A stretch of 64,000 nt of DNA, from contig NC_015416.1 of NCBI RefSeq assembly GCF_000204415.1, positions 2,294,001 to 2,358,000 on the forward strand, written 5' to 3'. This document shows positions 28,353-47,508 of the stretch, piece after piece; position 1 is the first letter of the stretch; the number at the start of each line of letters is the position of its first letter. The translations under genes were made by a program, and so were the position numbers. The DNA comes from Methanothrix soehngenii GP6 (GTDB lineage Archaea > Halobacteriota > Methanosarcinia > Methanotrichales > Methanotrichaceae). The notes below the pieces were generated by a model. It did not search any database. It was not told where the DNA came from and saw only the letters and a list, made by a program, of their open reading frames with translations.

Positions 28353-28504
28353 GGCTCCTCGCTGTTTGTTATGGGTGAACTTGAATCGCAAATTCTCTGT
28401 ATCTTTTGTGCCTCAGTGATGAATCACGATGCACTGGCCCAACCACAGAGTCACAGAGGCTACATTCTCTGCCTGAACTCACCTGCATAATTCAGCGAAG
28501 AGCC
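28353..28504. mobile_element. MITE-like element, copy A (152 bp)
   Basis: It begins GGCTCCTCGCT and ends AGCGAAGAGCC, an 11-bp terminal inverted repeat with one mismatch that extends imperfectly to about 26 bp (ATGGGTGA against CAGGTGA). The interior is about 85% identical by eye to copy B at 47.35 kb. No coding potential. No target duplication is visible here (flanks AAAATTGT and GCCATTAT). It lies between mobB and a decayed ferredoxin gene. Confidence 0.75.
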
Positions 28505-30679: not shown

Positions 30680-31876
30680 TTGAGTTCAGATATTTGTAGA
30701 ATGGCATCTGCTTTCGCCTTTATTGCACTCTTGGAGATATGCATCATAGGTTCAATGGCATTAGCTCAAACAGATCGGGATCAATTTGCTATGGAGGGAG
30801 CATCTGAACAGACGGTAAAGATCGGGGCGATATACAACCAGGTGGGGTCGCAATCGCCCTTGGATCTGCCGTCCGCCAGGGGAGCTGGGCTTGCAGTTGA
30901 TGAGATCAACAGACTTGGTGGAATCGATGGCAAAGAGATCGAACTGATCTTATGTGATGGCAAGAGCGATACTGCAAATGTTGGTGAATGCGCAAAAGCC
31001 CTTATCGCAGAAAACGTCTCGGCAATAATAGGCCTGAGTGACACAGATATGGTCCTAGCAGCAGGACCAATCACATCTGCCGCAGGGATACCTTTTGTCA
31101 CATCAGGAGCAACTTCTCCCAGACTGGCAGAGGAGAATGAAGGCCTGTTCTTGGCATGCTTTGGCGACAATGTCCAAGCCAGAGCGGGGGCTGAGTATGC
31201 CTTTAATGAGATGGGAATCAAAACATGCTCACTTCTAGTGGATGGGGATATGGAATTCGCTCGCCTCCTGGCCTACTATTTCAAGGAACGATATGCAGAT
31301 CTGGGAGGAGAAATCATCATGGAAGCCTTCATCAATGATTCAGATCAGGCGATTCTGAGCCAGGAAGTCTCTGATGCGCATTCTGAGATGATTTACCTTG
31401 CAGCAGGACCGGAAGAGGCCAAGGCTGTGATCGAAGCTCTGCGGAAGGCCGACATTGATAGTCCTATATTTGGCGGCGATAGCCTCGATTCGCTTGACTT
31501 GAGGCGAGATGGGATGGGAAGGATCATCTTTTCGACACATGCCCTTCTGGATGAAAACTCCTCCCGCACAGGTGAATTCGTTCGGGCCTACAAATCCGAG
31601 TACGGATATCCTCCTGAGAACGCCTTCTCTGCTCTGGGATATGATGCAGTCAAACTTCTGGCCGAGGCCATTGACAGGGCTGGATCGAGCGATCCGGAGG
31701 CGATTTTTCAGGCCCTTGGAAATACTTCAGGGTTTAGTGGAGTGACAGGGGATATAAGCTACCAGGATGACTGTCGCATACCTAACAAGGACGTAACCAT
31801 AGTATCGCTGATAGATGGGGAAATTGCTGATTTGGAAGTGATGCAATCCACGAATATGCCGCTTATATCTGGATAG
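30680..31876 (+). CDS. Branched-chain amino-acid-type ABC substrate-binding protein (Peripla_BP_6)
   Basis: 398 aa. The signal peptide is FAFIALLEICIIGSMALAQT, with no lipobox. The mature part has two lobes of the Leu/Ile/Val-binding-protein family: VKIGAIYNQVGSQSPLDLPS, ELILCDGKSDTANVGECAKA, VSAIIGLSDTDMVLAAGPIT, IPFVTSGATSPRL, and FGGDSLDSLDL. The start is TTG, placed 8 nt after a perfect GGAGG site. No permease or ATPase genes are nearby. It is divergent from the binding-protein/Cache gene, and the pair may sense or capture related solutes (inference). Confidence 0.88.
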   Translation: MSSDICRMASAFAFIALLEICIIGSMALAQTDRDQFAMEGASEQTVKIGAIYNQVGSQSPLDLPSARGAGLAVDEINRLGGIDGKEIELILCDGKSDTANVGECAKALIAENVSAIIGLSDTDMVLAAGPITSAAGIPFVTSGATSPRLAEENEGLFLACFGDNVQARAGAEYAFNEMGIKTCSLLVDGDMEFARLLAYYFKERYADLGGEIIMEAFINDSDQAILSQEVSDAHSEMIYLAAGPEEAKAVIEALRKADIDSPIFGGDSLDSLDLRRDGMGRIIFSTHALLDENSSRTGEFVRAYKSEYGYPPENAFSALGYDAVKLLAEAIDRAGSSDPEAIFQALGNTSGFSGVTGDISYQDDCRIPNKDVTIVSLIDGEIADLEVMQSTNMPLISG

Positions 31877-31995
31877 GAGTCCTTCTCCCCGTGGTCATGC
31901 GCTTCTGTCGGGCGATGAAGGAGAAATCCGTGATCCAGCTCAAACATAAACCTCTCCAGCACCTGAGAATACCCGCCCCCAGGTCCCGCTCGCTG

Positions 31996-32103
31996 TTGGC
32001 GTCCCCCAGCCCCAGGAAGCCCATGAGGTATAATGTTAGAATCGGCTTCTGTGACCACCTGGCCCGGTTGGCGTCCTCCAGCTCCAGGAAGCCCATGAGG
32101 TAT
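31996..32103. repeat. Two direct copies of a 36-bp sequence, 72 bp apart
   Basis: TTGGCGTC(C/T)(C)CCAG(C/T)CCCAGG-type sequence ending CCCATGAGGTAT occurs at 31996-32031 and 32068-32103 with only a few substitutions. The 72-bp period equals 24 codons and both copies encode the MGFL.L.DAN peptide on the minus strand. It is an internal repeat of the decayed gene rather than a mobile repeat. Confidence 0.6.
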
Positions 32104-32114
32104 GGGATCCCATA

Positions 32115-32173
32115 GGCTCCTCGCTATGTTGTATGGTTGAACTTGAATCCACCACAAAATTCAGCGAAGAGCC
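32115..32173. mobile_element. MITE-like element, copy C (59 bp, internally deleted) with 8-bp target duplication
   Basis: It starts GGCTCCTCGCT and ends AGCGAAGAGCC like copies A and B, but keeps only the ends (GGTTGAACTTGAATCC left-inner sequence joined to ACCACAAAATTC). It is flanked on both sides by ATCCCATA (32107-32114 and 32174-32181), a perfect 8-bp duplication. Removing the element and one duplication rejoins the decayed host gene. Confidence 0.85.
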
Positions 32174-32281
32174 ATCCCATAAGACCAGATCCAAGGTTAT
32201 GCGAACCTCCTCGTGAAGGGCTTTATGCCCCTGCCTGGCCAGCTCCTCCGGCTTCCGGTAGATGGCACTTCAGAGGATCCT

Positions 32282-32583
32282 TGATGTAGATGATTTATAT
32301 GAAATGTGATCAGGAGAGCTGTGCAGACAGTGTCTGCACTGTCTTCTCCTCTTCAAAAGGTATTCCCCATCCGGATCAATTGAAGATATTATCATTTTTA
32401 CGAGAAAAGAAAGAATTAGCTCGAAATATTTGACGGTTTTTGGAATCGGCAAGGGGATATTTTATCATGAGATTTTTGATAAAATCACCCCTATTATACT
32501 CTCAATAATGTGTTTTTGTCAGGATCACCGGACGGATAATTATCTATACCATGATGCATTCCTTGGATTAAGGAGGAATACTA
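32282..32583. other. Non-coding region upstream of the sulfatase
   Basis: About 300 A/T-rich bases with no credible gene. It contains a short palindrome-like stretch (ATCATGAGATTTTTGATAAAAT) near 32463-32485 and TATA-like CTATTATACTC near 32491, which is a plausible promoter for the sulfatase. A strong AAGGAGGA ribosome binding site ends at 32577. Confidence 0.4.
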
Positions 32584-47348: not shown

Positions 47349-47508
47349 GGCTCCTCGCTATTTGGAATGGGTGAACTTGAAATCGGGAATTCTCTGTATC
47401 TTTTCGCCTCTGTGGTGAACCGCGATGCACTGACCCAACCATAGAGACACAGAGGAACAGAGGCCATATTCTCTGCCGGACCTCACCCACATGATTCAGC
47501 GAAGAGCC
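47349..47508. mobile_element. MITE-like element, copy B (160 bp)
   Basis: It begins GGCTCCTCGCT, ends AGCGAAGAGCC, and has 26-bp imperfect terminal inverted repeats matching at about 18 positions. It is flanked by CTCTATTT on the left and CTTTATTT on the right, an 8-bp duplication with one mismatch. The interior shares long blocks with copy A, for example ATTCTCTGTATCTTTT and GCGATGCACTGACCCAACCA in B against closely similar sequence in A. It lies in the gap before pus10. Confidence 0.8.

Follow-up and report, generated by a model that had tools for sequence, protein, structure and literature searches.

A 59-bp MITE copy in a decayed nuclease gene of Methanothrix soehngenii and its probable ISL3 transposase partner

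The window analysed here is a stretch of 64,000 nucleotides, C1:2294001-2358000 of the host genome (G000; 3,026,645 bases in 2 contigs), and carries copies A, B and C of a MITE. Copy C is a 59-bp element on the plus strand at 32115-32173 with termini GGCTCCTCGCT and AGCGAAGAGCC. It is flanked by the octamer ATCCCATA at 32107-32114 on the left and by a perfect match to that octamer at 32174-32181 on the right, with coordinates and repeats exactly as a preliminary description of this DNA had given them. Copy A (28353-28504, plus strand, 152 bp) has no clear target duplication (4/8), and copy B (47349-47508, plus strand, 160 bp) is bordered by a 7/8 target duplication, CTCTATTT/CTTTATTT. The 11-bp ends of C match those of A and B exactly, and C aligns to both as a left arm of ~35 bases (about consensus 1-35) and a right arm of ~24 bases (about consensus 136-159) with the ~100-bp middle absent, in agreement with the earlier statement that C shares these ends and is otherwise deleted. 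Identity of C to the family consensus is 91% across 58 aligned bases. Both subterminal TGTGGGT boxes are altered in C, to TATGGTT and TGTGG-T, and family-wide nearly every base of these boxes is 82-96% conserved. When up to 2 mismatches are allowed, the window contains 5 occurrences of TTCAGCGAAGAGCC where 0.9 are expected, and GGCTCCTCGCT alone at the same tolerance shows no excess over chance, so that the evidence rests on the pairing of ends together with the duplications.

C lies inside a decayed gene of the YhcG/DUF1016 family (PDDEXK nuclease, PF06250) on the minus strand at 31872-32384, limits that are approximate and derive from blastn comparison with intact homologues. The decayed sequence matches PF06250 (YhcG PDDEXK nuclease domain) with an E-value of 4e-4, under the curated cut-off of the family. 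Measured against intact homologues, which are proteins of 366-380 amino acids, the gene is frameshifted, lacks internal sequence to the right of C and is partially duplicated in tandem to the left of C, confirming that the element sits in a degraded gene. The tandem duplication occupies the left flank at 31979-32114, involves ~45 bp with the second copy at 32067-32111, and is found in none of the homologues compared. Seven homologous genes preserve the empty site for C, six of them in congeners and one a paralogue in the host itself (from C1:1289304 onward), and in each the octamer occurs once only (ATCCCGGA or similar) with no insert. An example of an empty site reads through as GATAGGGATCCCGGAAGACCAGATC, compared with GGTATGGGATCCCATAAGACCAGATC for the C locus after removal of the insert and one octamer. 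C does fold well as a hairpin (z -3.9), as would be expected if its short palindrome were a transcription terminator or a chance inverted repeat, but this reading has a negligible probability given the kinship of C with A, B and dozens of further copies and its target duplication, and the empty sites rule it out.

The 11-bp sequence GGCTCCTCGCT has 57 exact sites genome-wide versus 2 for a reversed control, and the right end TTCAGCGAAGAGCC with up to 1 mismatch has 85 sites versus 1 for the control. We analysed ~309 kb of DNA around every end match, a sample that under-represents copies whose ends are badly degraded, and blastn with the family consensus recovered 88 similar loci in this DNA, 60 of them near full length (~160 bp). 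After removal of spurious or overlapping pairs, 60 end pairs were kept. An exact 8-bp flanking repeat borders 26 of these 60 pairs and a 7/8 match borders 8 more, compared with 0.5 exact repeats on average, and never more than 4, when right flanks were shuffled; flank lengths of 3-7 and 9-12 bp gave 0-2 repeats each in the same 60 pairs, with no clear excess over shuffles. A search of the genome with the MITE ends therefore recovers the 8-bp duplications anticipated from the window. The target duplications are AT-rich and follow no fixed motif. Family members are short (59-233 bp, typically 147-162 bp), multi-copy and devoid of a transposase gene, and diverge from the consensus by about 5-20%. 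Their classification as MITEs draws further on the exact duplications, on the empty sites for C, and on the 11-bp ends and TGTGGGT box held in common with an autonomous 1302-bp ISL3 insertion sequence (IS). A search with the MITE interior only returned 40 scored matches, nearly all at known MITE loci or end-anchored remnants, and included one match at 2969138. Among 26 congeneric genomes, 8, this one included, have MITE matches at E <= 1e-10.

Three copies of the 1302-bp ISL3 IS reside in the genome at C1:174905-176206, 1978578-1979879 and 2943445-2944746, each with GGCTCCTCGCT at both ends and each flanked by a different perfect 8-bp duplication (GTTTATTG, AAATTCCA and TAATTTAG). These are the full-length ISL3 elements with matching ends whose existence elsewhere in the genome had been suggested. 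One copy differs by 1 base from the other two, which are identical; this near-identity suggests recent spread, in contrast to the more divergent MITE copies. All three hold a complete open frame of 417 codons. The encoded protein covers PF01610 (DDE_Tnp_ISL3) from 1 to 240 of 240 positions (E 1e-75), and also has the ISL3 helix-turn-helix and zinc ribbon domains, HTH_Tnp_ISL3 and Zn_ribbon_ISL3 (PF13542, 1e-15; PF14690, 5e-10). PF01610 matches nothing else genome-wide, making this the sole ISL3 transposase of the host, and the 8-bp duplications and imperfect GGCTCT/C-type inverted repeats of the IS agree with its placement in the ISL3 family. The IS and the MITE have the same 11-bp ends and the same duplication length, and 18-21 of the 26 terminal bases are alike, among them those of the TGTGGGT box (positions 18-24). 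In contrast to the MITE, the IS has a transposase, an unrelated interior and GGCTCC at both ends, where the right end of the MITE reads GGCTCT, a difference indicating that the source of the MITE was a related IS and not directly the resident copies.

An ISL3 IS in a congener (G011), with 75% amino acid identity and an 8-bp duplication GAAAAGGA, displays the left/right asymmetry of the MITE. Its left end is GGCTCCTCGCTA...TATGGGT (GGCTCC) and its right end is GGCTCTTCGCTG...TGTGGGT (GGCTCT), each agreeing with the MITE at 23/26 positions. The mismatch between MITE ends and resident IS ends would be compatible with mobilisation by a non-ISL3 enzyme that also generates 8-bp duplications. However, we regard such an enzyme as very improbable, because the only ISL3 transposase of this genome belongs to an element with the same terminal 11 bp, TGTGGGT box and duplication length, and because the end asymmetry of the G011 IS is that of the MITE. 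Judged from these sequence comparisons, the MITE was very probably moved by the resident ISL3 transposase or a close ancestor, and the original attribution of its ends and 8-bp duplications to the ISL3 type stands. G011 also contains 159-bp MITE copies of identical sequence that occupy different sites and are bordered by 8-bp duplications, which makes recent mobility of the family probable for at least one species.

MITEs linked to ISL3 are a kind of element already reported in Methanosarcina and Microcystis, and C is in this respect ordinary mobile DNA. Microcystis aeruginosa has an ISL3-linked 187-bp MITE with GGCTCTTCG ends and 8-nt duplications that, like the Methanothrix MITE, is non-coding and high-copy with imperfect ends of this type, shares its ends with a partner ISL3 IS of its own host, and has insertions within genes (PMC11448079). 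The two differ in host domain, interior and length, and recent movement of the Microcystis MITE was seen by strain comparison whereas the Methanothrix MITE is known from sequence anatomy (PMC11448079). Methanosarcina acetivorans has a 179-bp MITE in 6 copies that was assigned to ISMac21 (ISL3) (PMC3852290, Table 4). Compared by description, that element resembles the Methanothrix MITE in being short, multi-copy and attributed to ISL3 in an archaeal methanogen, with 22-bp inverted repeats, and is unlike it in having 6 copies and 7-bp repeats as opposed to at least 60 copies and repeats of exactly 8 bp (PMC3852290). We found no publication on a MITE family in Methanothrix or Methanosaeta (including Methanosaeta concilii) in a search that lay outside most subscription papers and ISfinder, and the family has apparently not been described so far. 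Our search of the literature found few reports of ISL3 MITEs, and the present results connect a large MITE family of Methanothrix, a major methanogen that uses acetate, with one particular ISL3 transposase whose frame is open, providing a ready natural substrate set to define the end requirements of ISL3 transposases.

Elements with ends of this type differ widely in what lies between them. The 1302-bp IS, the ~160-bp MITE, a 326-bp MITE and a 470-bp composite are all found with 8-bp duplications and have mainly their ends in common; exact duplications also border the 326-bp MITE and its 156-bp derivative, as well as a 233-bp form and the composite. The idea that interiors are dispensable is better supported by this comparison than by C. 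The 326-bp element at C1:2027004-2027329, with target duplication ATCCAACT, represents a second non-autonomous family that recurs, whole or in part, near 490 kb, 502 kb, 1524 kb, 2375-2377 kb and 2714 kb, and the 156-bp form at 2714174-2714329 is an apparent deletion between internal direct repeats of this element with an 8-bp duplication of its own. A 159-bp MITE at C1:502752-502910 is nested in a copy of the 326-bp element, where it offers a second empty-site comparison with the low-complexity duplication AAAAAAAA. In the composite at C1:996168-996637, a 154-bp segment lies between two MITEs of the same orientation, and a perfect 8-bp duplication, AAAAGAAA, brackets the whole arrangement, so that the MITE pair seems to have carried the intervening DNA along. 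Similar loci lie at approximately 412214-412581 and 2771310-2771667, with outer repeats judged 7/8 by eye, and the 154-bp segment is also repeated in tandem near 748 kb and near 754 kb.

The preliminary description had gone further and taken C as showing that the ends alone are enough for movement, a claim that is not sustained: C is a single copy with damaged boxes, and no further short copy bearing a duplication was found in this genome, in 25 congeners or among GTDB genomes sampled at one per species. If C was already 59 bp when it moved, two ends 59 bp apart would be a minimal ISL3 substrate, and one of the smallest that occur naturally for a transposase of this family. Such movement would be consistent with the perfect duplication and the intact 11-bp ends of C, with the replaceable interiors of the elements above and with two 147-bp copies that have internal deletions in common and different flanks, a pattern indicating that a slightly shortened form moved. 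Yet we consider movement at 59 bp unlikely. No other element with exact ends and a length of 42-72 bp was found in the 26 congeneric genomes, pairing of two ~24-bp ends within 59 bp would probably be sterically tight, and the subterminal boxes of C are damaged. A search of GTDB with one genome per species yielded 15 short end pairs, none with an 8-bp duplication, and about 7 such matches are expected by chance (a rough estimate from pattern length), so these pairs lend no support to short mobile elements; viral contigs contained no short end pairs. Loss of the interior after insertion would be the simpler history in a region visibly losing and duplicating DNA, and the altered TGTGGGT boxes and missing siblings point the same way. 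Deletion after insertion accounts for C equally well or better, although one copy cannot decide the order of events.

With high confidence overall, we interpret C as a member of a genus-wide ~160-bp MITE family moved in trans by ISL3, its interior probably lost after insertion. In the proposed mechanism, an ISL3-family (DDE) transposase would recognise imperfect terminal repeats of ~24-26 bp, in which five or six variable bases separate GGCTCYTCGCT(A/G) from a following TRTGGGT, and would insert the MITE at AT-rich sites with formation of an 8-bp target duplication. One MITE entered the YhcG-like nuclease gene and doubled ATCCCATA, the ~100-bp interior of C was afterwards most probably lost through local deletion, and the surrounding gene likewise decayed through deletions, frameshifts and tandem duplication.

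The 15 short pairs from GTDB were rejected as relatives of C on the basis of their lack of 8-bp duplications, and several proved to be palindromes, perfect or nearly so, built from ISL3-like ends. Five loci (L202, L205, L208, L213 and L214), from several bacterial phyla, are near-perfect palindromes of 45-68 bp with ISL3-like ends including the GTGGG box and without target duplications, and are candidate terminators, fused ends or assembly artefacts.
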